Assembly: GCA_015956445.1 (NCBI GenBank)
Contig: WIUZ02000018.1
Coordinates: 620,001-684,000 of the forward strand
DNA from: Thelephora terrestris
Taxonomy: Eukaryota; Basidiomycota; Agaricomycetes; Thelephorales; Thelephoraceae
Length of the DNA: 64,000 nt
Direction of reading: 5' to 3'
Of this stretch, positions 11,110-36,421 are shown one piece after another. The notes beneath the pieces are model-generated. The model did not search any database and was not told the DNA's origin. It saw only the letters and a list, made by a program, of their open reading frames with translations. Numbering within the stretch: position 1 is the first letter of the stretch; each line of letters opens with the position of its first letter. The position numbers and the translations under genes were made by a program.

Positions 11110-13381
11110 TGTCACGAACACGTGACATGGTGAACAAAATCGCACAAATAATCAAAGACATTGGTCTTATTCGTCGGCCTAGTAATAGTACAAAAAGAAA
11201 CAAGGAAGAAACTAGACAAGGAGGAAGGGATCTATCTTACACACGCAGTCCTGATCTATCGGACAACGATGGGCAAAGTGGAACAGATTATATACTGACT
11301 GAGGACAATAGGTATAGTCCCGAGATACCGGACCTACCCAGCAGTCTCGGCACCCCAGAACATCATGCTCCAAGCCATCGAACATATCCCTCCTCACTGA
11401 ATCTAGCCCTTCACGGACTAGATCGAACCCATACTTCTCCTGCAGACTCGCCACTTCCAACTTCAACCTCATTCGAACCTGATGACTCTTGCTTGAGGGA
11501 CGACACCGTTGTCCAGAACGAGTCATCGGACTCTTGCGCTGCTTCTTCACAGTCCTCTCCACCATCTGAGGAGCAGGACTCCAGGGAGGGGATTGGGGAA
11601 GAGGAACTCCCCGATCCTGGTGGTGTCGGAGGGACAATGGGGGAGTTGGGAGCGGGGTCGGTGCAATAGGCCCCTCGGCACTGGTGCCTGAAATACCGGA
11701 AGAGAGATTCCTGGAATGGTTTCCAATGTTCCAAAGCGAAGTGAGTGAAATCTTCGTTAAGACTATTAACAACAACATACATCACGTCCATCCGACCCTC
11801 CAACTTCCTAATGCGATCTTCCCTCTCCTGTTCCATTGCGTCCCTCAAAGGAGAAATGCCAGGAGCCCAACGACGAGCACGGTTGGGATCTTCATAACCG
11901 GCTTGCTCCCAAAACTGGGGAGGAGCGTTATGGGCCGTCAAGAAGTCCACGGTGACCTTGTTATCTTGGGCAATGTTGGCAGGGGTGTCGTACAAATGTT
12001 GTTCGACGTCGTAGGGGGTGTCGTCCTTGTAGGGGACAGAGACGAAAGGGGTGGCAGAAGCGTTGAGCGACATAGTGTTAAAAGGTTGTTTGTGAGAGGG
12101 GAAGATTGGTTGTTTGGTGAGAGTGGAAAGAGACGATGAGGGGAAAAGGACGAAGGCAAGCCACAACTTAAATACGCCCAGATCAATGGACAACCCAAAA
12201 GGGGTGAAAACAATGCGCCATTATCCATTACTGTCCCAAAAAGGGTAGACGAACCCTTGACCCTAATCATGACCCATCAAATCCTGAGAAATCCCCATCA
12301 CCCTTCTATTGCTACCACGAAACACGAGAAATCCCCATCGATCATGAGAAATCCCCATCACTCTTCTATTGCTACCATGAAACACGAGAAATCCCTATCG
12401 ATCATGGGAAATCCCCATTGTACTCCTAATGACTCATCCGCTATTGTCCCACTGTTCCGCACTCACTATTAGTCGTTCTAAGTCCCACTTCTCTGACTCA
12501 CCTGACCTACCCTAAAGTACACACAGACCATGTTGATCCCTGTTTGGCTCCTTGTAGAATTATGACTCCTGTAGAGGATTGGGTATATAAGGAAGAGCGT
12601 TCGCTCCTTTCTTTTCCCCATTCTCAATCTCTTCTGTACTTCTCTACCCATAACCTCAATAAACAAAGTAAGCTGAGGAATTCTCCTCACACCTTACTCT
12701 TTCTGACTCATTCAAGCAGGAATTCTCCTGCTAGTGTATGTTCAGTGCTCCTAACCCATTCCCCTCTACTAGTCCCATCCAACGTCCAAGCATACCCAAC
12801 GCCAGAAGATCTATCTGGGAGTATAAGCTCATCAGAAGTCTTCAAGTAAACTGAACCACCGGTTTACTCACTCATTTCCCTTACTATCACCCCTTTGCAG
12901 CCCTCAACGCCGGAGTTACTACTCCTCCGTTCCTCTTAGGAGCCGATCATCAGTTCCTTTGGAACTCAGACTTCACTGAGAGCGTCCTAGCGACTGTTTA
13001 CTTCAGTATAAGCCCAGCTTTCTACTTCCCCAGTCCTCGCACCCATCTTACCACTAACGTCCATACTCATTCTCCTGCTATCATTGTCCTGTGGTGGGAA
13101 ATCCCAACTGAATTACCCTATTCGGTTATAGAATATCTCGTCAACTTTGATCACCTCAGCAATCAAGACTTCAAACCGTTCGTCCAACAACTGAGTCAAT
13201 TTTGCCAAGACTATCACTCACCCGTTCACCCCTATCAAACCGAGTCACCACTCGCCCTTGATATCCCTCCACCCCTCGCTCCCACACCTGGAACCCCCTT
13301 CAAAGTCCAACCCGACACTCCTCGTCTGTCCGCTAATCCTCTAGCGCCCCTTAAACAGTAAGCAGGCCCCCAACCCTGACA
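11110..13381 (-). mobile_element. LTR-like element, family 1, copy 1 (carries a divergent gene pair)
   Basis: A 2.27-kb element whose plus-strand ends read TGTCACGAACACG and CAACCCTGACA, matching the termini of the copy at 19,837-22,148. It holds two divergent open frames: one on the minus strand (12,072 to about 11,212) and one on the plus strand (from 12,740), with tandem GAAATCCCC motifs between them. Flanks are GCATT and CGCGT, so no target duplication survives; the right flank is the inside of another LTR (13,382-13,521), suggesting a rearrangement or an insertion into that LTR. Reading frames are partly degraded with a few breaks. Family unknown to me; the TG...CA ends point to LTR kin. 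Confidence 0.65.
12280..12425. repeat. Tandem GAAATCCCCATC motif array in the divergent promoter (family 1, copy 1)
   Basis: About five copies of a GAAATCCC(C/T)AT core, alternating with short spacers that include a second direct repeat (ATTGCTACCA). It lies between the two divergent open frames. The same array in the opposite direction is found in the two other copies (14,335-14,405 and 20,795-20,945), so it belongs to the element. A promoter or binding-site role is inferred from position only. Confidence 0.7.
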
Positions 13382-13521
13382 CGCGTGTCATACCAATCAA
13401 TCGGATCACTGATGTGATACCGTCCCTTCGGGTCGCTTGTCCAGCGCTCTCCGGCATTGGCTCTCGCTCTAAGCGGTGGAGCCGGTTGACCCGTTTCCAG
13501 GCATAGACCTCCAGTTCAACA
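13382..13521 (-). mobile_element. Truncated LTR (same family as 14,723-15,076)
   Basis: The reverse complement matches the first ~140 bp of the solo LTR at 14,723 (TGTTGAAC start, then CGGGTCAACC). The rest is missing; it is wedged between two family 1 elements. A broken fossil. Confidence 0.65.
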
Positions 13522-15860
13522 GGATTAGTGGGGTAAGGAGTATTGGGTCTTAGTTTGATGAAGGGGGTTCCAGAGTAGATGGTAGAGACGGAGGTATGTT
13601 GAGGGCGAGAGGAGATTCAAATTGGTAGGATGAATGGGATAGTTGTAATCCCTGCAGAATTCAAGGAGGTGTTGAGTGAATGGTTCAAAGTCTTGGTCAC
13701 TGAGTCGTTCAAAACTGTGGAGGTAATCTATAACAGCCCAAGGAAGATGAGTTGGAATATCCCACCAAAGAACAGTGATAGCACACTATCAGTAAGATCA
13801 AACTTCCACAAGAATTGGTGGTCTGCTCTGGGCAAAAAGGGGGGAGTGATAACTCCGGTGTTGAGGGCAGCGAAGGGACAGTAATAGGGGTGGTGTGCTA
13901 ATAAACCACTGGTTCTATTACCCTGAAGTCTCCTGATTAGACCTTCAAGTGTTGGGGATAGGAGGCTGCTAGTAGAAGGAAAAGGATTTGGGGCACTGAA
14001 CATATGCTAGCAGGAGAATTTCTGCTTTGAATGAATCAGTAAGAGTAAGGTGTGAGGAGAATTCCTCAGCTTACTTTATGTATTGAGCAGTTGGTAGGGG
14101 AATACAGAAGAGATTGAGAATGGGGAAGGAAAAGCGCAAACGCTCCTCCTTATATACCCAATCCTCTACATGCTTAGTAATCATACAATGAGTCAAACAT
14201 GAGTCGACATGGTCTATGCATAGTTTAGGGCAGGATCAATGAGTCAGGAGAGTGAGACTTAAGATGACTGATGGTAAAACAAATAGGGGAACAATAGGGG
14301 ATGAGTCAACAAGAATACAGTGGGAATTTCTCAGGTTTCATGGTAGTAATAGAAGCACAATGGGGATTTCCCATGATTGATGGGAATTTCTCATGATTGA
14401 TGGGATCGAGATTGGAGCTGAGGGTTTGTTTGTCCTTTTTGGGACATCAATGAATAATGGTATATTGTCTTACCCCTTTCGGCATCCCATTGTTTCAAAG
14501 GTATATAGCTTGTGGGGTTTCTTGGTCATTCTCCCCATTGTCTCTTTTCCCTTCTCACAATCACACCACCACTCTTCTCCTCTTTATAAACAACCTTTTC
14601 AACATCAACACTACTCCTTTTGACGCCGTTACCCCTTACAACATCAATACTCGTTCTGACATTGCCAACCATCTCTACGACACTCCTGCTACCATCGCTC
14701 ATGACAACAAAGTCCCTCAAGATGTTGAACCAGAGGTCTGTGCCCAGTAACGGGTCAACCAGCTCCACCGCTTTGAGCAAGAGCCGATGCCAGAGAGTGC
14801 TGAATAAGCGACCCAAAGGGACAGTGTCACATCAGTGACCCAATCGATCGGTATGATGCGCGCGTGCCTTAAGCTGCCGCACGGACCCTGCATCAGTCAC
14901 ACTGCATAGCTGTGACACCAATAGAGTAGATAGATATATATACCCCACATGTGTAGATAAATCAATCAATCGCTTCTCTCTCTCTCAACCCCACTTGCAC
15001 TCTTATATCTTCTCCTCTCAGGTAAGGACTAGAGTATGCCATGTAGTAGTATAGAATATACTCTACCTGCTCAACACAAGACTTCCTTTGCCAACATGAG
15101 GCCCCTTTCCAAGTTTGGGATCAAGCTGGACATGTCATCCCTCTTCTGGATACCATGGAACGTAACAGGGAGGAGAGAAATATTAGGTTGGAGAAACAAA
15201 TGAATCTTATGTGTGTTATGTTTGGGAGTTTCAACAAGGACTTCATGCATTTTTGTGACGAACATTGGAAACCCTTTCAGGCGGCTATCCGAAAGCACTG
15301 CATCTGCAGACTGTGTCTCCCCACAGATCAGTCCCAGTCATCCCTCTGACTCCACCAGGATCAGGGGGTCCCTCTTCCTCTATCCCCCCCTTGGAATCCT
15401 GCCCCAGTTCTTCAGATGGTGGAGAAGACCTTGAAGAAGAGCCGCAAGAGTCCGATGACTCGTTCTGTACAGCGGTGTTGCCTGTTGAACAAGGCTTGCC
15501 AAGTGCGGATGTGGTTGAAGTTGGAGGTAGCGAGTCTTCAGGACAAGTATGGATTCAATCTAGTGAGTGAAGGGCTAGAGGAAGTGAGGAGAGAGATGAA
15601 TGAGGGGTTGCAGCATGATGTACTAGGGTGTCGAGACTGCTTGGTAGACCTGACACCCGGACAGTATTCTTACTGTCCTCAGGGTGTGTATAATCCTTTC
15701 CATTTCTCTGATTGTTGCCCTCTTTCTCAGTCATGTGCTTGCGAAGTAGATCCTTTCCTTCTTGTTTAGTTCATTTAATTTGTCTTGTACTACTACTGCA
15801 AATGATACAAATTTCTTGGATGACCTGTGTGATTTTCCTCAAAATGTTACGCATTGAACT
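13522..15860 (+). mobile_element. LTR-like element, family 1, copy 2 (interrupted by a solo LTR)
   Basis: Sequence alignable to the copy at 19,837-22,148 in the same direction: minus-strand frame beginning at 14,003 (MFSAPNPFPSTS), GGGGATTTC motifs at 14,335-14,405, and plus-strand frames down to 15,769 ending in DPFLLV. The left end is lost at the junction with the LTR fragment, the right end near 15,860 is worn, and a 354-bp solo LTR sits inside. This is the most degraded of the three copies, with several breaks, and is inverted relative to copy 1. Confidence 0.6.
14723..15076 (+). mobile_element. Solo LTR (copia-like), 354 bp
   Basis: Starts TGTTGAAC and ends GCTCAACA, flanked on both sides by CAAGA (14,718-14,722 and 15,077-15,081), a perfect 5-bp target duplication. 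A TATATATA box lies at about 14,935. It is inserted in the plus-strand gene of family 1 copy 2. Related pieces are at 13,382-13,521 and 58,118-58,290. Assignment to copia is a guess from the short LTR and its ends. Confidence 0.85.
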
Positions 15861-15898
15861 AGCCACTAGGCCTTTGGAGTCCGAAAAGGCGAAGATGG

Positions 15899-16190: not shown

Positions 16191-16241
<51 letters not shown>

Positions 16242-16756: not shown

Positions 16757-16773
16757 TGTCAGGGCCACTCTAC

Positions 16774-19195
16774 TGTGATGATTTCGCCGTTTACCCCCTT
16801 TCATTTCCTTTATTTAACGCCTCATCACCACTAAGTCAGTTGGTGCCCTGCCCTAAACACGGCGGTAAACTGTTTATTATGCAGTATGCCCTATGCTTAA
16901 CGACTCAAAAGTCCAATACGTGGAACGTGCTACTAGTCAAGATACCCCAGAAGACCCGAGGTATAATACGTGAACATGTACCGGCGGACCTTCATACGAA
17001 GATCCCCCCTACCTGGCCCTCCGTTGCCCCTGGACGACTAGTAGATATTCAGGCTACCGACAACAAGGGATGTATTAACAAGCGTCGCGCGCTGACCTCT
17101 CGCAGAAGTCAACCGGCTTATTAATCTGACCCTTGGATTGGACTTACGAAAATCATTATGCTTTACGACTCATGGATCACACGCAATAGACAAAATAGAA
17201 AGAAGATTCATTGGAAGCCAACAGTACAAAAGAGTTATCTAATCAATATCTCTTCGGATCCTTTGTACTACTTCCAATGCCAATCTCACCAACTCCTCAT
17301 TCAACCAGTTCTGCTCCCAGATCTCGTTCGGGTCCACGTCCGACAAGTCATCGTAATCTGGAAGCTCCGTATCAGAGTTTGGTTCACTATCGGGAACGAA
17401 CTCGGCGTATGGATCATACTCCAGAGCAGGCCATTGACGGCGACTACCCCAAGGAGTAGACACGAACTCAGGACGAGGAGTATCCCTACGGACAACTCCC
17501 ACGTTCTGATAGAATTCGTCGCTCCCAATCTCAATGACCTCATCGTCGATGGGAACCAACCTGTTCTCGTGACGGACCAACAAACGAGCGGGCGGCGACT
17601 CAGCCCGGTTAGGGATGATCGGCAACCCGGCCCGATAAGGAACCTCCAACTCCTCTTCTTCAACTCGGACCTCCGGATCATTGCACCTCCTCTGGAGATC
17701 CCGGACTTCTCCGGTCAACTCAGAGACACGACGAGTAAGGCGAACCTAAAACAGATAGGGTTAGAAGACATCAAAAACCTTCAACCCCTACCCGTTACCT
17801 TATCGTCCTCTAATTCTCCGGTCTTAGTAACCAGAGCCCGGACCAAGTCCTTGAGAGTAGTCACCTCTCCCTAAAAAGAAAGTTTGAGTTAGAAAGGTCA
17901 ATTACTCCTGACCCAAACTTTCTTACCTTCAACAAATCGATGTCGGCGCCCTGCCGAACAACGCTATCTTCCTGTCCATGAATAACTCCCTGCATATCCT
18001 CCTTCCAATTCTCCAAAGCTTCTATCTCCTCACGACGACCATCAATACGCTCGTTGACATGAGCCACTTCGTCCATCAACATGGACCCAACGTTCCCCGT
18101 ATGGAGAACGCTGGCCTCCAACACGGAGTTGAAGGTCTCGTTGGCCTCAGTCACGAACTCAACACCCCTATTGAGGAGTTCGTTCGCATATGGGTTTGTC
18201 TCGATACGCGCCAACTTGCGCCGAGACACCCTACGAGCAGCTTGGAGAAAGTCCCTGAAACCTAAAAGGAGTTAGCTTGGTTTCCTAAAACCAGAATACG
18301 CAAGCAGAGCCCCCACCTAAATCAGAGAACCCCTCATTAGGGTCGGCGGTGGCGGTCCGGTCCATAACAGCTCCCAAAGTAGGATAAGGGCGGGATGGAT
18401 CACGACGGGCATGGGAGAAGCAGTCGATGTTGTAGTTGTTCTCCTGAACAGGAGAGTAAGAGGAAGAGCGACGGGTGGGATTGCGAGTAGAGGCACGAGG
18501 CATGTTGGCTGTGTAACAAAGGTGGGTTTGTTGGAAGACCAGTCATCCAACCCCCTTTGATTATATACCAAATGCCACGCCCCTTCCACGACTCAGGAGT
18601 TGAGTCATCATTTCTATTGTTTACTGCGCATGACCCACATGACATCATATGCCCCTATTTCTTAGTCATATGCTCCCCTTTTGCCATTGGCTGTTAGTCA
18701 GTCATACCCACATTCCTTCCGAACATTCCCAGGCTACGTCATGCTTTGTAACTGCTTTGTAATGCTCTCAAATTGCTATTGGCTGCCACACTTTCGTTTA
18801 TCAGCTGATAATTTGTAGCATTAGTCACCACGTAACGCACAGACCATGCAGTGCTGTGCACGGACCATGTTTGTCTGTGTTTGTATCTTTAGAGTAGTTA
18901 CATGTCACTGTCACGTCACAAATCTAAGTAGTATATATACTCAGAGTAGTTTAGCCTGTACTCCTTAGATTTGTTATCATCAGACTCTCCGTGACCTCTA
19001 TTGCTGTGTGCTTAGAGCAAGAGTGTTTGAAGACCCTTGTCTCCTTCTTTCTCCCCCTCTCCAATCTAGTCTGTGAAGAGACTTCCGATATCCCTGGGTT
19101 TGCAACAGGGTTATAACTGTGTGTTTGACCCCTGAGTGTGATAGGTTTGGATAGCAAGAGTGCTATTGAACTGTAGAGGTCGCGTCGGCCTGACA
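16774..19195 (+). mobile_element. LTR-like element, family 2, copy A (2.4 kb, carries an antisense coiled-coil gene)
   Basis: Ends TGTGATGATTTCGCC and GTCGGCCTGACA, flanked by TCTAC on both sides (16,769-16,773; 19,196-19,200). Ends and TSD length fit an LTR. A TATATATAC box at 18,931-18,940, about 260 bp before the right end, would be the sense promoter; the region upstream (U3-like) is unusually long and holds an intron-bearing gene in antisense (18,503 to 17,239). There is no second LTR or internal retrotransposon domain here, so it is a solo copy. Its ends look whole. A second copy is at 30,528-32,876. Confidence 0.8.
17239..18503 (-). CDS. Coiled-coil/acidic protein gene carried antisense in family 2, copy A
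   Basis: Coding segments lie at about 18,503-18,320, 18,229-17,930 and 17,730-17,239, with intron-like gaps. The first segment is basic and Ser/Arg-rich (MPRASTRNPTRRSSSYSP). The second is a helical heptad-rich stretch (NERIDGRREEIEALENWKED). The last has an acidic tail (TELPDYDDLSDVDPNEIW) before a short amphipathic end. A TATA-like box for this strand is at 18,561-18,568, about 60 bp upstream of the ATG. The same gene, at the same place and strand, is in copy B. No known domain recognised; I cannot say whether it serves the element or is captured host sequence. Confidence 0.55.
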
Positions 19196-19873
19196 TCTAC
19201 CCCAACAACTACCAGTGCACTGAGCCGACTCCGCAGAGTACTCACTAGTCTGACTAGTTGTGAGAGGATGGTCACACCTCTATTCTTCCGGTAGGTTGTC
19301 TGGGGTCACTACAAGTAAAGTCAAAATCCTAAAGGGAAATCCAACCTAAACTTTGCTTTGCTAGGTTTATACAACAAGGGTTTATCCCTACGACAGGATT
19401 GATGACTCCACCAGGTGTTTTACTGGATGTTCAAGGTATTCTATGTTGAGAACACTCGGGTTCAATAATTATGAGGCACAGTCAAAGAGCAGAGCAGGAG
19501 GGAGAGCAGATGGGGTTGTCTTGTGCTCAAACAGAAAACTCTGACTTGACCTTAACTGCAACTGGGCTGAGAAGGGCAGAGGATTTCCTGAGATAACAAA
19601 ACTAAGGTACTACGATACAGCCACAGTTTCTATATATACTACTAGAGTGGCCATGACATCAGTAACCCTAATATACCCTTATCAAGAAAGAACAAAGGGA
19701 GATAAGGAGTGTGAGAACGCTAAGTAAGGGAAGTGAACAAGTGTGATGTGTGGGAGAATAAAGGACAAAGGGCCTTACTAGTGTGTGAAGGAAAACATAA
19801 GAGAGCAATAGTCCACATGAAATATAGGGGGGAAAGTGTCAGGGTTGTGGGCCTGCTTACTGTTTGTGGGGCG

Positions 19874-20482
19874 CTAGAGGATTAGCGGAGGGGTGAGGGG
19901 TGTCGGGTCTAGTTTTGAAGGGGGTTCCGGGTGTGGAAACGAGGGGAGGAGGAATATCGAGAGAGAGAGAGGTGACTCTGTCTGATAAGGGTGCACGGGT
20001 GAGTGGTAGTCTTGGCAGAACTGACTGAGTTGCTGCACGAAAGGTTCGAAGTCCTGGTCGCTAAGGCGTTCGAAGTTGACGAGATATTCTATAACCGAAT
20101 AAGGTAGTTCAGTTGGGATCTCCCACCAAAGAACGATGATAGCAGGAGAATGGGTATGGATATTAGTGGTGAGGTGAACACGTGGGGAGGGAAAGTAAAA
20201 GGCTGGGCTGATACTGAAGTAGACAGTCGCAAGGACGCTCTCAGTAAGATCTGAATTCCAAAGAAATTGATGATCGGCTCCTAGGAGAAAAGGGGGAGTA
20301 GTGACTCTGGCGTCGAGAGCTGCAAAGGGGCGGTAGTAAGGGAAATGGGTGAGTAAGCCGGTGGTTCGGTTTACTTGAAGACTTCTGATGAGTTTATACT
20401 CCCAGATAGATCTCCTAGCGTCAGGGACGACTGGTTGCTGAACTGGACTTGTAGAGGGGAAGGGGTTGGGGGCACTGAACAT
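19874..20482 (-). CDS. Family 1 minus-strand gene (202 aa), unknown function
   Basis: An intact 202-codon frame starting MFSAPNPFPSTSP, with conserved blocks FAALDARVTTPPFLLGADHQ and FYFPSPRVHL and a Pro-rich tail. Relatives are recognisable in copy 1 (from 12,740, plus) and copy 2 (from 14,003, minus). A TATATAAGGA-type box sits upstream (about 20,625-20,632 on plus as TTATATACC). No catalytic motif, signal peptide or membrane segment seen, and no match to a known retroelement protein. Confidence 0.6.
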   Translation of the reverse strand: MFSAPNPFPSTSPVQQPVVPDARRSIWEYKLIRSLQVNRTTGLLTHFPYYRPFAALDARVTTPPFLLGADHQFLWNSDLTESVLATVYFSISPAFYFPSPRVHLTTNIHTHSPAIIVLWWEIPTELPYSVIEYLVNFERLSDQDFEPFVQQLSQFCQDYHSPVHPYQTESPLSLSIFLLPSFPHPEPPSKLDPTPLTPPLIL

Positions 20483-20794
20483 ACACTGGCAGGAGGATTC
20501 CTGCTGAAATGAGTCAGAAAGGGTAAGACGTGAGGAGAATTCCTCAGCTTACTTGTATTCAGGTTGTGGGTAGAGAAGTACAGAAGAGATTGAGAATGGG
20601 GAAAAGAAAGGAGCGAACGCTCTTCCTTATATACCCAATCCTCTACAGGAGTCATTATTTTACAACGAGTCAAACAGGAGTCAACATGGTCTGTGCGTAG
20701 TTTAGGGTAGGTTGGACGAGTCAGGGGAGTGGGACTTTGGAACGACAAATGATAAAATGAAATAAGGGGACAATAGTAACGGAGTCATTAGGAG

Positions 20795-20945
20795 CATAAT
20801 GGGGATTTCTCATGATCGATGGTGGTAATAGAAGACTGATGGGGATTTCTTCATGATCGGTGGGGATTTCTCTCGTTTCACAGGGGCAGTAAAGGGCGGA
20901 TGGGGATTTCCCGTGATCGATGGGGATTTCTCCGAATTGATGGGA
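20795..20945. repeat. Tandem GGGGATTTC motif array in the divergent promoter (family 1, copy 3)
   Basis: Five GGGGATTTC cores, most followed by (C/T)(A/G)TGATCGATGG, spaced 20-35 bp apart between the two divergent genes. Conserved in position in the other two copies. Confidence 0.75.
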
Positions 20946-21139
20946 TCGCAATTGGGGTTGAGGGTTCGTTTATCCTAATGAGGACGTTTAATGGATAATG
21001 GGTTATTGTTTTCCCCTTTTGGACTTCTTAGAGTCAGGATGTATTTAAGTCAAGGGGATTAATGATTGTTCTCTCCATTGTTTCCCTTCTTCTCCCATAA
21101 TCACCAGCACCACTCTCCTCTCCAAACACTGTTACTACT

Positions 21140-22043
21140 ATGTCTGCCTTCGTTGCCAACAACGCCGTGCTCAGTGCTGCTGCCACCCCCTTTACTCCGT
21201 CCTTTGAGACGAATGCCCCCTACGACGTGGAGCAACATTTATATGACTCCCCTGCCAACATCGCCCATGACAACCAGGTCGCCATCAGCTTCCTCACCGC
21301 TCACAACGCCCCTGCCGAATTCTGGGAACAGGCTGGGTACGAGGATCCCCGGCTTGCTAGGCCTCAGATTGAGGCTAAACATCCCGGAGCCGTCCTTTTG
21401 TTGGATGCCATGGAGAGGGAACGAGAGGATCGAATTGCGAAGTTGGAGAAGCGTGTGGACCTCATGTACGTCATCATGAACAGCTTGAATGATGACTTCT
21501 CTCATTTTGCTTTGGAACATTGGGGACCTTTCCAGGCATCTCTCTTCCGATATTTCGGACACCAGTGTCACGGGGCTTATTGCACCGACCCCCCTTGCAA
21601 GTCCCCAGTCGTCCCTTCGCCACCGCCAGGATCAGGGCGTTACTCTCCCTCCATCCCCTCCCTGGAGTCCTGCCCCAGTTCGCCAGATGGTGGAGAGGTC
21701 CCAGAAGAAGAAGAACCGCAAGAATCCGATGACTCGTTCTGGTCAACGCTGTCGTCCCTCCGACAAGTCACGTCAGGTTCGGATGAAGTTGAAGGTGGAA
21801 GTGGTGGGTCTCCAAGACCGCTATGGGTTCGCATTAGTGAGCGTGGCCTTGTCGGACGTGAAGCGAGAGATGCATGATAGTTTGTATCATGATGTGTTGG
21901 GATGTCGGGAGTGTTGGGTGGATCCGGTAACACGAGCGTATTCCTACTGTCCTCAGAGTGTGCATAATCCGCACCACTTCGCTCATCGTTGCCCGTTTGC
22001 TCAGGACTGTGCTTGCGACGTAGATCCTTTTGTCTTGGTCTAG
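21140..22043 (+). CDS. Family 1 plus-strand gene region: two overlapping conserved frames
   Basis: Frame one (21,140-21,877) begins MSAFVANNAVLSAAATPF, with conserved blocks YDVEQHLYDSPANIAHDN and FWEQAGYEDP, then a helical stretch and a Pro/Ser-rich, acidic end. Frame two (21,489-22,043) overlaps it and ends in a cysteine-rich block: HDVLGCRECW, YCPQSV, HFAHRCP, then C-x-C before DPFVLV at the stop. Both frames are recognisable at the same offset in copies 1 and 2, so both seem to have been under constraint. Whether and how they are expressed together cannot be told from sequence. No known family recognised. Confidence 0.55.
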
Positions 22044-22161
22044 ATTTGTGACTGTTACGAGTTCCCGTTGTACTTCTATTAGTTTGAATAAGACCAATGT
22101 CTTTGATGATCTGTGCAATCTTGGTTACCATGTCACGCGTTCGTGACAGAAAGATAACACA

Positions 22162-22863
22162 AGTCCTAAAAAAAATAGGGGCATATGGTCATGAAAGTTC
22201 GTACCTGGGACCACACCCAAGGGTCAGGTGAGCAACATCTCTTTGCCTTGGGAATTCAAGCGGACTTGGGATAGGAACTCTAGACATCCCTTGTTGTCGG
22301 TAGGCAGTGACAGCATCACGGACTAGTGGCAACCTCAATGTATGTCCAAACATGGGGAGGTAGGCCTAGACCCATGGGACATGAGGGATTACATGCTTCA
22401 CCAGTGTTTTGTGCTAACGGCTACTTCCACATTTGCTTGGCTAACCAAAAGGATTCTAGAGGCAATCCTTCTGAGTAGCATTGATTCCTTTCTTTGGTTA
22501 GGAAGACTGTGATGTGATGTTCCATGTGTGTGGTTCAGGGTCCAGGGTTTGTTGTTATCATGATGTCATAAATGAGTCATCAGGGTTGTAAAGTGGGTCG
22601 TCAAGGTCATGAGACCTATTGCTAGTGCGCATGCATTCTAGGCGTTTCGGAACAAAGTTCTTCCAAGGCCGAGGTGTCAGCTTGATGTAGTAAGCCAATG
22701 ATGATAGTACAGAGGTGGAAGTTGATGTGACCCGGACCAATGAGGTTTGTTGAGGGAGGTCATGTGAAGGATCACCACTCTTGGCTATAAGAAGGACATC
22801 TTCTTATTGCCATCCTTAAGCAGTTCTCCTCAATTTCTTACCCAACCAACTGCTACACCAACA
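22162..22863. other. Upstream region of an older coding unit, outer layer of the heap
   Basis: No gene. Just right of the LTR insertion the sequence (CATATG, AAAATAGGGGCATATG) resembles the 18,640 region of family 2, suggesting the outer layer is another element of the same general design. A CTATAAG box at 22,785 lies 80 bp before the ATG at 22,864. Confidence 0.4.
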
Positions 22864-25580: not shown

Positions 25581-25754
25581 TAACGGGGTTTGCTTCCAGA
25601 GGTGAGAATTTCCGGTTGTCTGCACCATTGGGAGTTGGTCAACGGAAGAAGAGAACAGAGAAGGAACGGCAAATTTATGGCAAGGGTACTAGCCGAGACA
25701 CTAAGCCGGCCCACAGCAGAATTTGATATTTCACCTTCTCTCTGTCGCCCAACC

Positions 25755-28700
25755 ATGGCCTGTGCACCCGCTCCTAGCAAGGTCACAAAACGACGATGCA
25801 TTTGCGGCTGCCGAACAACCAATGTCAGGACCATGAACAAACATATGAAACAACACTCACAAAAGCTCAACATTAAAATGACAAAACTCACGAGTCTGAC
25901 GGCCGTCTTCCATTTGAAAACACGGGTATCTTCAGGCAGCACTCAACTTCCTGCAATGGACGTAGATGAGGAAACTCCTCCCGCGGATAATCAGGGCGAT
26001 GACTCGAGCACCGTTTTTGATGGACCCTCCCTGCAATGCAACAGCAATGAACCCGAGGACAGTGATTGTGACAGCAATGGTGTGGGTGAGGGGATGTCAG
26101 TTGATTCAGATCCTGGGGACGAGTTTGAAGATGATGAAAGTGTCAACAACCAAGGCGATGAGGACGGAAGGAGACAAGGGGTGCTGAATTTTGAATTGAG
26201 CGCAGCAGAAGCAGGTGGCGTCCCCCACCAACACAAAATTCCAACGCAAATCTAACAGGATTGTTCGTCTTGTAGGAAGGACTTCCCTAAACGCTGCGGA
26301 GCTCAAGAACATCCGGGCATTCAATTATTTCATGATCCAAGGCACAACAAGAGAGGCTTACAAGGCACTTCGCTCCGCCTTCCCGGAGCTTGAGGACATC
26401 AGCTCAATCTACCTCACCCAGAAGACCATGGCCAAGCTCTCAGGGCTGAGCCCAAAATATGTTGACTGTTGTGTCAACTCATGTTGCTGTTATACTGGAA
26501 AGTACGAGACGTTAGATCGTTGCCCATTCCCTGATTGCAACAAACCTCGACTCGACGAAAGCGGACGGCCAAGGAAGGTATTCCAGTACCTGCCAATCAT
26601 ACCTCGCCTCATGGCACTCTTCCGTGATAAGGCTACAGCTGAAAAAATGAGCTACTGGCACACCTACTGCGAAGGAAGGGACACGGAGAAGGTTACTGAT
26701 GTTTTTGACGGCGCGATGTATCGCGAACTCTGCGAACGAGAAGTTACTGTGAACAGCAAGAAACTTCCCCATCGGTACTTCTCGGATCCCAGGGATATTG
26801 CACTCGGGCTATCTCTCAACAGGTTCGCTCCATTCAAACACCGAAGTAATTCGGCTTGGCCAGTCATCCTATTCAACTATAATCTCCCCCCTGACCTCCA
26901 GACTCACCTCGACCATATCCTTTGCTATGGAGTCATCCCTGGTCCTAAATCTGTAAAGGATGTCAACTCCTTCCTCATTCCCCTCTACGACGAACTGGCG
27001 CAACTATCAGAAGGTGTAGAAGGGGCCCTCAATTTGATGGCACAGGAGTGGTTTGTGTTGCATGCCTACCTCATCTTGTTATTCGGCGACATCCTGGCAG
27101 TATCAAAGTTGTTGATGATGAAGGGTCATAATGGCTTTTCCCCTTGCCATTATTGCAAGATAAAGGGGACGCGAAACCCTGGGGAAAAGGTGAACTACGT
27201 CCCTCTTCACCGTGAAGAAGGAGCGTATGACCCGCACTTGTTACGCTACCGGCATCATCGCCGATTCATCAGACAGGCAAAAAAGGTTCTCATGGCTGAG
27301 ACAGTCATTGAATCAGATTGATTGTCACAAAAATATGGGATTAAAGGCTTACCCGGCCTTTTCCTCCTCGGCTCGGTTGGATTCCCCGCCTCCTTCCCCT
27401 TTGACTTCATGCACCTGATTTTTGAGAACCTTGTTCCAAACCTCATTCGCCATTACACCGGAGACTTCAAGGGCCTCAATACTGGGGTTGAATCCTACAA
27501 ACTCCCAAAGAGTGTGTGGGAAGCGATTGGAAGTGCTGCGGCTCAGTCCGGGGACACGATTCCATCAGACTTTGGCACTCATATGCCTAACATTCTCACA
27601 GAACGATCAAACATGACCGCTGAAACGTGGTCGTTTTGGATCGTGTATCTTGGCCCAATTCTCTTGCGAGATCACTTCTTGAAGCCCATTTACTATGAAC
27701 ACTTTTTGAAGCTCTCACACCTGGTCCGCCTCTGTATGTCATATGAGATGAAGCGGTCCGACATCACGCTGATTTGAACTGGGTTTATTGAATGGGTCCA
27801 AACATATGAACAGTAGGTGTTGTTTCATCCATTTCTCTATACTTCCTGACTTAAAATGCGGCCACAGGATATTCTATCAGTACAATCCATCATGGCTGTC
27901 AACATGCCCCTTTTCAATTCATGCACTTCTCCACATCGCTGACGGAATTGAATCCGCTGGGCCTGTTTGGTGTTATTGGGCGTTCGCAATGGAACACTTC
28001 TGCGGCGCGGTTGGACAGCACGTCAAGAACCGGCGAAACCCATACGCAAGCCTTGATAGAAGGGTGCGGGACATTGCCCAACTTCAGATGGTTAAGCTAA
28101 AGTATGGGTTAACAGCCGAGCTCTCACTTAAACACTCGGTTGTTGACATCAGGGGTGGGGGACTGACATTTGAGGATGGACCCTGTAAGTTTACTATTTA
28201 AAACCCATGGAGTAGAACTTACTAAGGGCAATGTCCAAAATTCTGATTATGTCCTATTGCCCCCCAAGAGGAAGCTCGAGATCGACAGCTGGCTGCACAA
28301 GAAACTTGCCGCCGCATTAGTTACCAGATACAGCCCCGACGACCCGCAGATGAAGATTTCAATGACGACTGCATCAAAGTACGTCCCTGCAAGTGTTCAG
28401 CAGTGGGGCCAAGCACAGATCAGCAGTGGTGGCGATTATTTCAAGTGCCGAGCATTGTTGAAAGGCCAGAGGCATGCTCGTGATTGCACATATATCAAGG
28501 TGAGCACGTCTCGACCCTTTTTTCTTTTTCACATATCCCTAATTGGTTACAATACCTCAAGTATGAAGCCGAGGTTGATTTTTTCGAACGCCAAGTCAAC
28601 AGGGTGCTGGTGATGGTGAAGAAAGTTTTCTTCACTGAACTCCACCGCATCATTTGTGTCAACATACCCGCGAACCGAGAGCTTCACTTGGGCGAACATG

Positions 28701-28885
28701 AGCAATTGTACCTGGCTTTGGTGAAGACTTGCAAGGCTGAACAGGATGAATATGGGTTCTGGAGATATTTGAGTCTCGGTGGTTTTGAGTTTATTGATTT
28801 TTCAACAATCAGATGCACAGTCGGGCGCATTTATGACCGGAACGCATGGTATATTGTTGATAGAAGTAGTGAGATGCTACGCTAG
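25755..28885 (+). pseudogene. tnp2-type (CACTA) transposase gene with in-frame stops
   Basis: Start chosen at MACAPAPSKVTKRRCICGCR, the usual Cys-rich N-terminus of this family. An acidic linker follows, then an intron (about 26,217-26,274). The body has CPFPDCNKPR, the core KGHNGFSPCHYCKIKG (27,120-27,170) and YVPL. Then FPFDFMHLIFENLVPNLI (27,394-27,447), WSFWIVYLGPILLR, and, after a second intron near 27,812-27,865, CPFSIHALLHIADGI and WAFAMEHFCG. The C-terminal part runs to 28,885. These blocks match the Transposase_21/DUF4218 type found in basidiomycete CACTA elements; cut-and-paste transposition through a DDE nuclease is known for the superfamily. Frame-preserving stops at 27,319 (TGA) and 27,775 (TGA) break the protein. 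Without them it would be near 900 aa. Confidence 0.85.
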
Positions 28886-29064
28886 CGACAGTTGTTTGCA
28901 ATACATTCCGTTCAGTACCTACAGCGAGTACCTGCAGTATTAATATATATGTACTGATTCTCCAGTGAAAGCGAGTACTAGTCGATCAATAACAAAAATT
29001 CGAGTTCATACACAATGGTACTGATATGCACTGGCGATCATGCGTGCGAGTTCCCACAGTGGGA

Positions 29065-29615
29065 CCCCTCCAAAAGCTTCTACATTCAATGGATGGTGGG
29101 TTTGAACATTGATGACATCTTGAACAGCCAGGCCTTGGCCATCGATAAGCATTTGGATGAGGAGGTGCAACCTTTGATGAAGACGTTCAACAAACAGAAC
29201 TTGTTTTGTCTCTTGAAGCTTGGGGCCCAAGATCCAGTGACCTACGACAAGAACATGGATGCTTCAACTCAATTGAATTGATTTGCAGTGGTGTGTGTGG
29301 AGCGCTTGTGGGAAGAGTTGCAAGTGGAACGAACCAGGGTACGTGTTGTCATGTGTTGCTCCGATTGAGGAGCTAACATGACAATGTGTTTTTAGGCTGA
29401 TTGTTTGGAGCAACAGCACAATGAGTTGAGCAAGCAGCTCTATGAGTACGTTGGCCGCAAGGAAGTACAGTTCGCCGCATTGAAAGAGGCCCACGAGAAG
29501 TCCATCAAGGGCATGAAGTCGTTTGACAACATTGTGGACGGATGCTTGGAAGGGTTGGAGTGTCAGCTCAACCATCATCACAAGGACATTAAAAACTTGT
29601 TGGTTGACAATGATG
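29065..29615 (+). pseudogene. Second piece of the older coiled-coil coding unit
   Basis: Right after the CACTA insertion, coding-like sequence resumes (SKSFYIQWMVGLNIDDIL) and continues after an intron-like gap with EELQVER and a heptad-rich stretch (CLEQQHNELSKQLYEYV; 29,400-29,460). CpG is scarce. It is cut at 29,616 by a MITE. Confidence 0.5.
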
Positions 29616-29618
29616 ATT

Positions 29619-30119
29619 CACTGGGGGCAAGGGGACCTGGAAACAAGTGATTACATGCTGAAAACATTGTGAGACCAGGTGCACTTTTCTCACAATGTTA
29701 CCACCAATTACAGATAGGAAACATTTCAAATGTTCTCTTGACATGTGACCAATTTTTTTCCACTGGTAACAATCAAAATGGTCCCAAAGAATGTTACTGC
29801 AATTTTTCTCACACGTGGGCAAAATGATACTGCGTTGTTATGGACATGTTCTTTTATTATTTGAGAAACAATTGAAATGTTCTCTGGTATTTGGGATACA
29901 TTTAAGATGTTCCCACTGGGCGCATCATAAAACATTTTGGAGAACATTTTCTGGGAACATTCTGAATGTTGTCAGCTTAAACATTTGGACTCCAGGTCAA
30001 GGGAACATTTGAGATGTTTCTCATCTGTAGTCGGTGGAAAAATAGTGAGAAAAGTGCACCTGGTCTCACAATGTTTTCAGCATGTAAGCACTTGTTTCCA
30101 GGTCCCCTTGCCCCCAGTG
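29619..30119. mobile_element. CACTG-ended MITE (501 bp)
   Basis: Terminal inverted repeats of about 75 bp with one mismatch, starting CACTGGGGGCAAGGGGACCT. ATT flanks both sides (29,616-29,618; 30,120-30,122), a 3-bp target duplication. No coding capacity. The middle has repeated GAACATTT/AAATGTTC words. The ends fit the CACTA superfamily and resemble those of the next MITE. Confidence 0.9.
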
Positions 30120-30122
30120 ATT

Positions 30123-30457
30123 GGAACAATAAGGTGAACATGTTGCGCATCCTGCATGATACATTGGGCAAAAAGGTGGCTGGGATGAAGGAGTGCCGAT
30201 AGGAGTGCCAGACCGACCAGTCCTCTGGAGTATGCCTCTGATGGTTTGTCCACCTACTTCATTCCATTGGTTGAGAACGCGTCACCAATCCCAGTTCCAG
30301 AACCAATGCCTGCCGCTGACAACTCTCTCCCCGTATTGTCCTTGGAGAAATTTGAAAAGGAGAACATCAAGCAAGTGTCCAAGCTTGTGCCTATTGAGAG
30401 ACTTCCGGAGGATGCAAGCGGGGAATGCTTCGACTATTGTTGCAAAAAGGCCGCAGC
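30123..30457 (+). pseudogene. Third piece of the older coiled-coil coding unit
   Basis: Coding-like blocks NMLRILHDTLGKKVAGMKE, then TYFIPLVENASPIPVPEP and KENIKQVSKLVPIERLPED, cut by the MITE at 30,461. A short remainder lies between 33,469 and 33,540. Confidence 0.45.
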
Positions 30458-30527
30458 AGACACTGGGGGAAAGGGGGTACTTACCCAGTGGGTACATTGT
30501 GAGTTCATTGTGGGTTTTGAAACAATT

Positions 30528-32876
30528 TGTGATGATTTCGCCGTCTACCCCATTTTTATTTCCTTTATTCTTTGTCTCATCACCACTAAGTCAGTTGGTG
30601 CCCTGCCCTAAACACGGCGGTAAACTGTTTATTATGCAATATGCCCTATGTTTAATGATTCAAAGTCCAATACGTAGAACATGTTGCTAGTTAAAATACC
30701 CCAGAAGACCCAGGGTATAATACGTGAACATGTACCGGCGGATCCTCTCACGAAGATCCCCCCTACTTGGCCCTCCATTGCCTCCTGAAGACTAGCAAAG
30801 ATTCAGGCTACTGACAACAAGGGATGTATTAATAAGTGTCGTGTGTTGACTGCTCACAGAAGTCAACTGGCTTATTGATCTGACCCTTGGATTGGATTTA
30901 TGAAAACTGTTATGCTTAACAACTCATGGATCACGCACAAAAGACAAGAAAGAAGATCGATTCCGGGAGCCATCATACAAGAGGATTATCTAATCAACAT
31001 CCCTACGAATCCTCTGAACGATCTCCAAGGTGTTCCTCACCAACTCCTCGTTCACCCAATTCTGCTCCCTGATCTCGTTCGGGTCCATGTCTGACAGGTC
31101 CTCGTAATCTGGAAGCTCCGTATCAGAGTTCGGTTCTGAATTTGGAACAAACTCAGCGTGCGGATCAAACTTCAAAACCGATCCAAGATATCAAGATTCA
31201 GGAGGTGGAGTATCCCTACGGACAACTCTGACATTCCTGTAAAACTCCTCACAAATCTCAATGACCTCGTCATTGATCGGAATCAATCAACCTTCAACCA
31301 GGATCATGAACCGAGCAGGCGGAGACTCGGCCCGCTTCAGAATCATCGGCTCCTCTTCCTCAACTCAAACCTCCTCTCCCTGGCACCTCCTCTGGAGATC
31401 ACGGACTTCTCCAGTCAACTCCGAGACACAATGGGTAAGTCGAACCTAAAAGGGAAGGAGTTAGAACATTCACAAAAGGTTCTAGCTCCACCCAATACCC
31501 TGTCGTCCTCCAATCTTCCAGTCTGATCAATCAGACTCTGGACCAAGTCCTTCAAAGTGATCACCTCCCCTGAAAAGAAAACTTGGGTTAGAGATTAAAC
31601 CATCTCCCGACCCAAGCTTTCTTACCTTCAACCAATCAATGGCCATCCCCTGCTGTTCCTGTTCATCCTCGGTCTTCAACGTCCACTCTTGAAATCCGAG
31701 ACAATCCTTCTTGAGTTTCTCAATCTCTTTGTGGCAACCATCAACTCGCTCATTGACACGAGCAATCTCATCCATCAACATGACACCAACATTGCTCATA
31801 TGAACAACGCTGGTGTCCAAGACTGAGTTGAAGGTTCTGTTCACCCCGGTGACAAAATCAATGCCACAACCCAAGAGTTCGGACGCATAAGGAGTAGTCT
31901 CTATACACGCCAACTTGCACCAAGACACTCTCCAAGAAGCCTGGATAAAATCCCTGAATCCTAAAAGGAGTTAGTTCACTTTCCTAAATTGGAATGCACA
32001 ACCAGATCCCCCACCTATGTCAGTAAACCGTTCAGTAGGGTCAGCGGTGGCGGAACGGTCCAGAACATTCCCTAAAGTAGGATAAGGACGGGAACGATCA
32101 CCACAAGTGTGGGTGAAATGGTCAATGTTGAAGTTATTCTCCTGAACAGGAGAAGGGTTGGAAGAACAACGAGAGGGAATACAAGTTCGAGTACAAGGCA
32201 TGTTGGCTGTGTGTAACAAACGATGGTTTGTTGGAAGACCCAGTCATCCAACCCCCTTTGGTTATATACCAAATGCCACAACCCTTCCACGACTCAGGAG
32301 CTGAGTCATCTTTTCTATTGTTTGCTGTGCATGACCCACATGACATCATATGCCCCTATCCTTAGTCATATGCTCCCCTTTTGCTATTGGCTGTTACTCA
32401 GCTAACCCACATTCATTTCCGTTGTCTTTGTCATGCTCTCAATCGCTATTTGCTGTTATTGTTTTGCATGAGTCATCATGACTCATTTGTATTACTAAGA
32501 GTCTTAGTCACCCTGCGCACAGACCAGGCTGTGCTGCACACGGACCTTGTATGACTCTGGTTGTATATTAGTGTAGTCACTAGTCACAAGTCACGTCACA
32601 AATCTAGGTAGTATATATACCCAAGGTAGTTTAGCTTGTACTTCCCTAGATTTGTTATCATCAGACTCTCTGTGACCTCTACTGCTATGTGCTAAGAGCA
32701 AGAGTATCTGGAGACCCTTGTCTCCTTCCTTCTCCTTCTCTCCAATCTAGTCTGTGAAGAGACTTCCAATATCCCTGGGTTTGCATCAAGGGTATAACTG
32801 TGTGTTTAACCCTTCATTGTGATAGGTTTGAATACCAAGAGTGGTATCAAACTGTGGAGGTCGCATCGGCCTGACA
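30528..32876 (+). mobile_element. LTR-like element, family 2, copy B
   Basis: Ends TGTGATGATTTCGCC and TCGGCCTGACA, flanked by CAATT on both sides (30,523-30,527; 32,877-32,881). Collinear with copy A (16,774-19,195), including the TATATATAC box (32,611-32,620) and the antisense gene (32,201 to 30,990). It has lost more CpG sites than copy A and shows small length differences, so it looks older or more heavily methylated; ends look whole. Confidence 0.82.
30990..32201 (-). CDS. Coiled-coil/acidic protein gene carried antisense in family 2, copy B
   Basis: Same gene as at 17,239-18,503: basic start MPCTRTCIPSRCSSNPSPVQ, coiled-coil segment near 31,928-31,620, and acidic end (TELPDYEDLSDMDPNEI). 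A TATA-like box for this strand is at 32,261-32,268. Coding segments are diverged from copy A and partly degraded. Function unknown. Confidence 0.5.
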
Positions 32877-33540
32877 CAATTCACCCAGTTGTTACCCACC
32901 AGGTACTTTCTGAGTACTTTTTGAAAGATACCCATCAATTTGCCTGGATTTTACCCACTGGGTACATGGTGGGTACTTTTACAAAGTGTCCATCACAAAC
33001 CTGAGCCACTCATTGAGAGTTCTTTCATAAAGTACCCACTGATCTGATGACAATGTACTCAACCAGACACTCAGTAGGTTCTTTGGGAGTTTGTGATGAA
33101 ACTGAGCCATAGTGATTTCTTTGTGAGTTCTTTGAAAAAAGCCCACTGGGTAAATTGTGATCAGATTGGTGGGTACTTTATGAAAGAACTCTCAATGAGT
33201 GGCTCAGGTTTGTGATGGGCACATTGGAAAGTAAATTGTGAAAGAACCCAGGGATTTTGCTCAAAAAATACCCACTGGGTTCCTGAGTGGGTACTTTTAC
33301 AAAGTACCCACCATGTACCCAGTGGGTCAAATGCAGGCGAATTGATGAGCATCTTTCAAAGAGTACCCAAAAAGTACCTGGTGGGTAAAGACTGGGTGAA
33401 TTGTTTCAAAACTCACAATGCACTCACCATGTACCCACTGGGTAAGTATTCCCTTGCTCCCAGTGAGACTCGTGTTCCCAAGGCTTAAGCAGTTCCACGA
33501 GCTCCTCAGGATCAAACTGGGACACTAGGGTTGATGTTCC

Positions 33541-36421
33541 TGTCAGGGCCACTCTTTGCCCTTCAGGTACCAGTGCTGTTGGTGAGTCGCAACTCCAACC
33601 AACAAGAAACAATGGGGCAAAGGGGGAACGACTTCCCTATATCCACCCAAAGTCTATGTGGTCCAAAACTCGATGGACGAGTGTTCTCCAGTAGGTTGTC
33701 CGAATTCACAGCAGGAGTGCCGAGCCTCTATCCAATAAATCCCTATCTTCTTCTGAGGGCAGATATAAGAGCCTGAGGATGGCGCCTCAAACTGATGCTT
33801 GATCAAGAGAGCGACGAGGAACTCCTTTTCGTAAGCGCGTTCGCCGATTCTTGATGCAAGGCCGAGAGAGAGAGGAGAGCGAACGTGTTCCAAGAGGTAC
33901 TTGATAAGCTCTTCAGTGGCCTACAGCAATTACACTGATGCTGCAAGGAGAAGAGGACTTCCCGAGATATCAAAGATGGGGAATCCTCAGCTACTCTACT
34001 GGTACCTATATAGGAGAGTGACCGGGACAGAGATAACCCTATCTAATAATAACTCGGAGCAAAGAAGGGCCGAGAGTAAGCCAGAACAGTAAGCGGCCTG
34101 AAACATAGAATAGAAATGTTAAAGGAATGACTAGGGGGTCAGGGTTCATGAGAGAATAAGAAAGGGGTCATGACGTCATGTGGGAAAGGAATGACAAAGA
34201 ACAATATCACATGTGAAGACTGACCAATAGAGGGACGACGCGTCAGCTCGTCCGATCGGAACAACAAAAGACCAAGTGGGGCTCGAATGTCAGGACGAAT
34301 GTATGGGGGGTCTGGACCGGTGAAACGATGGACCGATCCAATGGCGAATAGGGCGCGAGCGCTTTTGCTGGTCGGATAAAGCGTAGCGCGAACTGGCCGT
34401 TGGATCCATCAAACTCCCTTCTTCCCAAACCAACAATCCCACCAACCAACTACTCATCCATCATGCCCATGATCTCCAACCGTGTCTTCCGTGCTGAGAA
34501 CAGCACCGCTACCATCGAGTCCGCGGATCCTCGGTCCATGCAGAACAAGGGATATTTCCTGCCGAACGCCAATGTGGCGTACCCTAGTTATCGCGAGGTG
34601 CAACATCACGTGTCGCCGTTTGCTGGCAACAACTGACATCGCATTCGTAGATCTTCGTGGCTGCCGACAAGGTGGATGCTCGACAACTGGAGGTGATGAT
34701 AGCCAAGCCTCCCAGCTACCTGACCATGGACGACGAGTTGTGGTATCACAACTTGATCGATCACAAGCTGCAAGAGTCGATGCGGGGGGTAACGTTCGAC
34801 ACTGAGCTGCGCATGCTGTGGGAGACTCCGGTGGCGTCTGCGCTGTGGGGTCTTCTGCGAATGGGGATCTACGACCTAGGGAATGGCGAAGGAAGATGGC
34901 CTGGAGCTACTCACTCCCAACACTACACCGCCGCTGTTGGTCACTGTCTTTGGTTCCTTTTGAGGACGGAACAGAAAGCGGTGAGTCGGTCTGTGCATCC
35001 CACTTGTGGGATAACACTGATTGGCTTTGTAGAACGAGCGGCTGAAACGCGAGGTGAAAGAAGCGAAGGACGATGCTCGCAGGATGTACTCGGAGGCGTT
35101 GGACACCAAGAAGACACTCCTCCTTATGAACGATACTCTTCATGTGACATTCGAGAGTGAGATGCTGGCGATGCAGGAGGAGCACAACCAACTGGTCGAG
35201 TCGTTGAAGGAACGGGATGACACCATAAAACGGGACCTGATTGAGGTCGACCGACGGCTCAACCGTCACAGAAGGGCCCTGAATGAGTTGGACACCAAGG
35301 TTGGTGTGTCTTCCCCTGGTCTTTTTATCCGAGGGAACTCATTCCGCTTCTAGGTTGATACGTTGGACGATGCCTTGCCGTTGCTGGGCGCTCGGGTCGA
35401 GTCCATGAGTGAGCGACTATGCCACTGTTGTACTTGTTCGGTGGCAGCGGTTCAGGACGAGTCCGAGGACAAGTCAATTCCGGACAGGATGGCTTCCCCA
35501 ATAGGTTGGGATGCCGGTTGACATATTTGACCTGTCTACTGACATCCTTCTTAGCTTCTGACGGTTCGTACCGTACGCCTGCGCACACAGATGGCGGGGA
35601 GGAGGTCGTTCATGAGACGTCCGAGGAGACAGCTGTGAACCCGGTTAGCAGTTCTCCTGAGTTGGAATACGCGGGGGAGAATGAGGTGGCCGTTCTGGTT
35701 CCACCTCCTTCGATCTCTCCGGTGCGTGGACAACGTTCCATTCGTGCCCGTCGATGGGTTCCTTATAACGGTGCTCGTCATCCAGCCCATTGCATGTGTC
35801 CCAGTAATCCCAATGTCGTCCGCCAGGGTGGAGACATCGAGTCCACCGTCCTATTCCGACGCGACGATGTTACAGTGTCGCCTGGATCGCGGCGAGCTAA
35901 TCCCAGTGGAGTCCGTCGACGTGAACGGATTGACGAACCTTACGCTCTTGTCGGTCCAGCGTGCAGCGGAGGCTGTGCGCTTGGTGACTCAGCTGACCGA
36001 GAGAGTGGAGGGTTGGTCAGTCCAGAGGACTCAGGATCAGACTATGGTTGATTCAGCGAGGAGCCGCCTTCGCGCCGAAGTTCAGCTAGCCGTAGCTCAT
36101 CGTCTGGAGGAAGCTCAGGTCGTCGAGATGGTCGACGAGGAAGCCATCGAGAGTGCCTCGGAGGGGACGGAGGAGGAGGTTGCCAGTGCTGAGGAGTACT
36201 GGCAGACTAGGTCTTGATGATCCGTTGGCCATTCGTCTAGTGTCTTTGTCGCGGGTTCGCCCGCTTGTAATATCATCTGTGCCTTTGTCTGTGTCTCTTC
36301 ATGACGTGTGAGTCGTGATAAGGGGAAGAGATAAGATAATAAAGGGGTATAGGTAAGGAAAGTGATCGAAAGTTGGGTGTGAAAATGGTTCAAAAAGAAG
36401 TTAAAATTCAGCACGCTGACA
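33541..36421 (-). mobile_element. LTR-like element, family 4 (2.9 kb, carries an antisense coiled-coil gene)
   Basis: Ends TGTCAGGGCCACTC and CACGCTGACA, flanked by GTTCC on both sides (33,536-33,540; 36,422-36,426). A CCTATATAGG box near 34,005 reads toward the left end, so the element points left and the gene at 34,462-36,217 (+) is antisense to it, in the U3-like part. This is the same plan as family 2, with little DNA similarity. The left ~450 bp resembles the ~660-bp LTR of 16,757-22,161. Looks whole at both ends and relatively young (CpG-rich). Confidence 0.8.
34462..36217 (+). CDS. Coiled-coil protein gene carried antisense in family 4
   Basis: Coding blocks: from the ATG at 34,462 (MPMISNRVFRAENSTATIES) to about 34,609; 34,651-34,980 (KPPSYLTMDDELWYHNLIDH); 35,030-35,301, strongly coiled-coil (ERLKREVKEAKDDARRMYSE); then Ser/Pro-rich and charged segments to about 36,217. 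Gaps between blocks have GT and AG ends and 45-60 bp length, typical of introns in this genome. Downstream two frames overlap (35,540-36,051 and 35,681-36,217); the second is helical (AAEAVRLVTQLTERVEGW) and acidic. No known domain. Similar in plan to the family 2 gene, which suggests a common role. Confidence 0.55.

Follow-up and report, generated by a model that had tools for sequence, protein, structure and literature searches.

The window analysed here is a 64,000-nucleotide stretch of Thelephora terrestris DNA (C10:620001-684000, in a searched genome of 40.6 Mb and 60 contigs). Short introns, a Transposase_21-type transposase and a chromovirus are in keeping with a fungus, probably a basidiomycete. 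The window contains repeated units of 2.3-2.9 kb which end like solo long terminal repeats (LTRs) and carry genes. We assign them, with a probability of roughly 0.85, to a class of long LTRs (2.3-3.3 kb) of Ty3/gypsy retrotransposons that harbour an intron-bearing gene, gene A, in antisense orientation. In family 4 and in a fifth family such LTRs were found in pairs within full-length elements, while families 1 and 2 would be further members. The observations that carry this assignment are the LTR pairs with target-site duplications (TSDs) outside them, gag-pol in the fifth family, an integrase match in family 4, antisense exons, the homology of gene A between two families and the marks of purifying selection. 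That LTRs here host genes had been proposed in a preliminary description of this DNA, with same-direction pairs around a gypsy-type interior as the suggested check. Such pairs exist in family 4 and in the fifth family, which lies in the same stretch and had gone unlisted, but no full-length element of family 1 or 2 has so far come to light.

Paired LTRs and gene A in family 4 and the fifth family

The fifth family is represented on C12 by an intact gypsy element, whose two 3,324-bp repeats differ at one base and have CCATC on either side. A 1322-amino-acid (aa) open reading frame (ORF) contains protease, reverse transcriptase, RNase H, integrase, SH3_Tf2-1 and a chromodomain, and a 681-aa ORF carries a zinc knuckle together with a gag match below threshold. 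The family is a Ty3/gypsy chromovirus and the 3,324-bp repeats are its LTRs. An LTR end followed by the primer-side motif ACCAGCCGGTA occurs at 10 sites in the genome (eight of the fifth family, two of family 4; none in the control) and each of these junctions has an integrase match 3.8-4.8 kb downstream, judged by positions. At C23:1032749-1047143, two fifth-family primer junctions (1032749 and 1042059) lie 9,310 bp apart, a spacing that might be expected of a tandem with a shared middle LTR. The window itself holds a fifth-family LTR remnant, 80-86% identical to that of the C12 chromovirus and broken up by a family 1 insertion (19837-22148) and a family 2 insertion (16774-19195).

A full-length element of family 4 lies at C12:1325805-1337501. 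Both of its LTRs are 2,934 bp long, with two mismatches between them and an outer TSD of GTTTT; the 3' LTR is preceded by the purine-rich AGAAGGAGGATCC and begins 945 bp past the integrase match, compared with 939 bp in the fifth family. The family 4 unit is thus the LTR of a Ty3/gypsy retrotransposon, and the window copy at 33541-36421 is a solo LTR, because it is 85-88% identical to this pair and has a TSD of its own, GTTCC. Among 13 retroelement copies compared by their 3' flanks, L056 alone matched one of the families, and this was family 4.

Gene A sits inside both LTRs of the full-length elements of the two families, antisense to the genomic RNA. In the window copy of family 4, five exons join into 459 aa without a stop, with splice sites placed by hand (introns 34598-34650, 34981-35032, 35300-35353 and 35505-35554). 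The family 4 and fifth-family proteins are 28% identical over 418 columns (E 1.6e-25), and in the whole-protein alignment two of the three exon borders compared fall in the same column, the first being offset; the two genes are homologous. Hence the families, described earlier as unrelated-looking, are not all unrelated. Between the window copy and the C12 element, nonsynonymous and synonymous divergence (dN/dS) is 0.044/0.473 (0.09) in exon 1, 0.046/0.876 (0.05) in exon 2, 0.035/1.141 (0.03) in exon 3 and 0.073/0.312 (0.23) in exon 5, and the frames of all four exons are free of stops. Two frames are open at 2099-2508 of the unit, where dS is lower than in exons 2 and 3. To judge from these ratios gene A is under purifying selection. 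For the LTR-sense ORF of family 4, the comparison of codon positions gave no clear coding signal.

These features suggest how an LTR could keep a gene with introns. The U3 part of the LTR would hold gene A, with its several short introns, read against the genomic RNA, and transcription of the genomic RNA would be directed out through the LTR 3' end by a TATA-like site that lies further along. In families 1, 2 and 4, TATA-like sites that point out of that end occupy equivalent positions. Introns antisense to a genomic RNA are not spliced out of it and hence persist in retrotransposition. The splice signals of gene A, if it is transcribed and spliced as supposed, would go unread in the genomic RNA, and its introns would survive each RNA-based copying cycle because the gene is antisense. 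U3 sequence is copied into both LTRs; a full-length element would therefore have gene A twice, one in each LTR, and recombination between the LTRs would delete gag-pol and leave a solo LTR in which gene A is complete. Gene A most likely encodes a protein with an accessory or regulatory role for the element, and its direction is comparable to that of the additional antisense ORFs in plant gypsy elements.

Families 1 and 2: ends, genes and origin

A first look gave 402 candidate copies of family 1, 317 of family 2 and 318 of family 4, 40 of which were scored for each. Among the matches listed, 32 of 55 (family 1), 21 of 52 (family 2) and 20 of 64 (family 4) run end to end, and the unit ends are sharp and real in all three families. 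The end motifs, at up to three mismatches, occur 318 times for family 1 and 217 times for family 2, and not at all in a control read backwards. The ends of family 1 and 2 units read TGTCA...TGACA and have only about 5 bp in common with one another.

The preliminary description listed six insertions with TG...CA ends in families 1, 2 and 4. Five of the six have these ends intact; the one placed at 13,522 is a decayed and interrupted copy of family 1. The exact 5-bp duplications reported for four of the six (GAAAG, TCTAC, CAATT and GTTCC) are present, and further solo copies with such duplications, which it had suggested looking for, are plentiful. Forty loci were fetched and 10 truncated copies dropped, leaving 30 full-length copies (9 of family 1 and 21 of family 2, two window copies included). 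An exact 5-bp TSD flanks 26 of these, which like the window family 4 copy thus show the single TG...CA unit and exact duplication taken as the mark of a solo LTR; one more has a TSD with one mismatch (by eye) and three have none. By chance a 5-bp duplication is expected in about 1/1024 copies. Duplications of other lengths, inverted repeats with a transposase, or a lack of copies elsewhere in the genome, named beforehand as contrary outcomes, were not seen.

The genes said to be carried by these insertions can be traced through the copies. They were studied in the copies closest to those of the window, a sample in which decayed copies are under-represented. Family 1 has divergent ORFs on its two strands, as described: the antisense gene A and an intronless, LTR-sense gene B of 207 aa. 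In nine copies gene B has dN 0.015 and dS 0.366, and it is strictly open, frame shifts counted, in eight; the exception is the window copy at 19837-22148. For gene A of the same nine copies, dN/dS is 0.07 in exon 1 and 0.11 in the tail, and its two frames are strictly open in eight and in all nine copies, respectively. Where the two frames overlap (unit 1648-2030), divergence is 2-5% at every codon position, the pattern that double coding would produce; in the non-overlapping tail, third positions are 29% divergent (dN 0.056, dS 0.844). Family 2 has an antisense gene A of several exons, for which the model is approximate. Among 22 copies dN/dS is 0.20 in exon 2 and 0.17 in exon 4, with ratios above 1 in the shifted frames of both exons; 19 of the 22 copies have a strictly open exon 2, and in exon 4 a single stop, taken as the terminal one, is present in 19 of the 22. 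The stretch 60-500 of family 2 is only about 5% divergent. Across the selected frames of both families dN/dS ranges from 0.04 to 0.20.

The search for full-length elements of these two families gave no partner. Measured from 126 positions of family 1 and 111 distinct positions of family 2, the 144 integrase matches show no recurring distance; this test is weak, since it found two fifth-family elements and none for 24 positions of the proven family 4, and positions are known for 126 of the 318 family 1 end sites and about half of the 217 of family 2. The primer motif ACCAGCCGGTA gave no match with family 1 or 2 ends, and a polypurine-motif search for the two families gave three matches against one in the control, which is chance level. 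The flanks of the 40 loci have many matches, which come from the nesting of copies in each other and in fifth-family LTRs; no internal region is common to them, and gypsy/copia protein matches occur in four of the loci searched. Thirteen same-strand pairs of family 1 copies, one of which is two parts of a single split copy, were considered as full-length candidates and set aside: those inspected (three whole gaps, two on C7 and one on C12, and the junctions of two more, on C13 and C1) are not retrotransposons. The C12 gap contains, by eye, Helitron-type coding sequence, and the recurring 7.6-kb spacing of such pairs is due to chance. Nor did other gypsy/copia groups qualify as partners, since none of the 13 retroelement 3' flanks matched family 1 or 2.

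Several points weigh against the assignment as a whole. No full-length element of family 1 or 2 was found, in a search of partial coverage. The integrase match of family 4, at 31.4 bits, is below the Pfam cut-off of 32.6, although it lies in a 1301-aa open frame, and the interior of the C12 family 4 element was read in small part only. Near the 3' end of the fifth-family LTR no regular TATA box was matched, the TATA-like site there being placed by eye. No Pfam family matched the gene products or exons scanned, with no transposase domain among them, and predicted structures had a mean pLDDT of 32 for gene B and 47 for gene A exon 2. Nevertheless families 1 and 2 are likely to be of LTR origin, because their end sequence, TSD length, antisense intron-bearing gene and promoter position match those of the proven LTRs.

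Either full-length copies of families 1 and 2 escaped detection or have disappeared from the genome, or the units themselves are what moves, which we think unlikely. In the latter case families 1 and 2 would be mobile in their own right, as units with LTR ends that related gypsy machinery moves in trans and that are kept by their own selected genes. The gene-bearing LTR would then be the element itself, a single 2.3-2.4 kb unit with a 5-bp TSD that uses integrase from gypsy elements with similar ends and for which gag-pol is dispensable, an idea we regard as doubtful. It gains from the lack of a full-length partner and from the age of the copies: the 26 exact TSDs out of 30 suggest young insertions, yet for most copies in the sample even the nearest neighbour there is distant (dS 0.15-0.44 in family 1 and 0.05-0.66 in family 2), as if many lineages had been active recently. 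However, the positions of the end sites are partly known, family 4 too was missed by the integrase-distance test, and some of the unread copies may be closer neighbours; we also know of no mechanism for the copying of a lone LTR.

The TGTCA...TGACA ends would also suit DNA transposons with very short inverted ends and a 5-bp TSD (Ginger-like, or hAT with 5 bp) and with passenger genes aboard, and integrase genes with introns do occur in this genome outside the long frames of retroelements. The paired, near-identical LTRs with outer duplications refute this explanation for family 4 and the fifth family, and for the others it is very improbable: the sole intron-bearing integrase repeat that was read lacks such ends, and the fungal groups treated in the excerpted parts of PMC12730594 show other duplication lengths or termini. 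This repeat, of about 6 kb and 99.4% identical between two places (C34:2449000-2457000 and C58:480500-488000), has no TGTCA ends at its shared borders; its integrase-like gene, seemingly intron-bearing, is outside any retroelement frame. A Ginger-like mobiliser was sought in four short integrase matches in 92-aa frames, and the two places read are unlinked to families 1 and 2. Least probable of all is that single LTRs picked up the genes from the host at random, or that the genes are spurious ORFs. The absence of any Pfam match would fit this, but it is countered by the codon-position bias and low dN/dS among copies and by a gene A that is homologous in two families and shares the position of two exon borders.

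Other features of the window

Table 1. Units, genes and remnants located in the window
Feature	Coordinates	Strand	Remarks
Family 1 LTR-like unit	11110..13381	+	Complete, TG...CA ends, without TSD; 76% identical over full length to copy L002
Family 1 copy, degenerate and interrupted	13678..15769	-	Pieces 73-80% identical, without TG...CA ends
Fifth-family LTR remnant	16757..22823	-	Pieces 22823-22589, 22304-22152, 19830-19196, 16773-16757 (last by eye)
Family 2 LTR-like unit	16774..19195	+	TSD TCTAC; sits within fifth-family LTR
Gene A of family 2 (several exons)	17239..18503	-	Antisense to the unit's promoter; ORFs, approximate model
Family 1 LTR-like unit	19837..22148	-	TSD GAAAG; sits within fifth-family LTR
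Gene B of family 1	19874..20479	-	LTR-sense, intronless, about 200 aa; frame shifted near the end in the window copy
Gene A of family 1	21140..22040	+	Antisense to LTR; two overlapping reading frames
Family 2 LTR-like unit	30528..32876	+	TSD CAATT
Family 4 solo LTR	33541..36421	- (LTR-sense)	TSD GTTCC; pieces 85-88% identical to both LTRs of C12:1325805-1337501
Gene A of family 4, 459 aa	34463..36051	+	Exons 34463-34597, 34651-34980, 35033-35299, 35354-35504, 35555-36051; antisense to LTR

Further repeats lie among and around these features. Inverted repeats of 134 bp (84% identical) at 13388-14856 bracket a decayed family 1 segment and are perhaps another mobile element, and a second pair (67 bp, 90%) at about 30461-33465 encloses the family 2 unit at 30528-32876. 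At 25584-30440 a Transposase_21-type transposase gene is followed by a set of ORFs that is coiled-coil-like, a character judged by eye, and has weak similarity (E 4e-4) to family 4 gene A; within this set, inverted repeats of about 185 bp enclose a short insert (29618-30120). The diverged direct repeats (73-75%) at 1206-3561, 4628-7022 and 10240-10677 have ORFs ending in a cysteine-rich motif and may be a local gene family.

Related elements and known systems

Other gypsy groups of this genome carry additional genes outside their LTRs. In two copies of one group (L047 and L054; C7:755700-765000), pol is followed by an antisense gene, which by eye has several exons and is present once in each element. 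The DNA of this gene has 17 matches in the genome (16 candidates, all scored), 10 of which lie 1.3-2.4 kb downstream of an integrase match on the same strand; none pairs up around an integrase match, and at E 1 the gene resembled none of the other genes. In another gypsy group (C60:748140-749940 and C8:121165-122965) extra sense ORFs of about 200 and 110 aa follow pol. Long LTRs with gene A may have arisen when the LTR border moved outwards over a downstream antisense gene such as that of the L047/L054 group. The existence of one gypsy group with an antisense gene after pol, and of others with a gene inside the LTR, suggests a route of LTR growth that can be tested.

Solo LTRs are normally treated as non-coding remnants, whereas most of the full-length copies read here retain an intact, selected gene. 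The genome has hundreds of these LTRs and LTR-like copies, and annotation may take their genes for those of the host. Antisense placement explains in a simple way how a retrotransposon can retain introns, and whether an LTR can become mobile alone is now a testable question.

Searches among open-licence papers turned up no description of intron-bearing antisense genes inside fungal LTRs, and the nearest known systems differ from the arrangement seen here. As in fungal chromoviruses of the Tcn1-like type, the fifth family has a zinc-knuckle gag, reverse transcriptase, RNase H, integrase, a chromodomain and a 5-bp TSD; unlike them, the LTRs here are 2.9-3.3 kb long and contain a protein gene. 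Fungal LTRs are usually far shorter than this. Proteins encoded in an LTR, or transcribed antisense from one, are known from MMTV sag and HTLV-1 HBZ. However, MMTV sag is read in the sense direction and HTLV-1 HBZ is coded mostly outside the LTR, whilst here a multi-intron antisense gene lies entirely within it. The antisense promoter of HTLV is located in the 3' LTR, according to the excerpted parts of PMC7264820.

The closest likeness is to additional antisense ORFs known from Ty3/gypsy elements in plants (Grande gene23, RIRE2, Retand, PvRetro13), which lie between pol and the 3' LTR as far as the excerpts of PMC7264820 describe them. Like gene A, these encode a conserved protein of unassigned function, antisense to gag-pol and on the pol side of the 3' LTR, and the one in Grande has its own promoter. 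The L047/L054 group, with its internal antisense gene, resembles the Retand-type elements of plants. In the plant elements, on the evidence of the same excerpts, the antisense ORF is outside the LTR and present once per element; gene A is within the LTR, is present twice per element and in solo LTRs, and has several introns.

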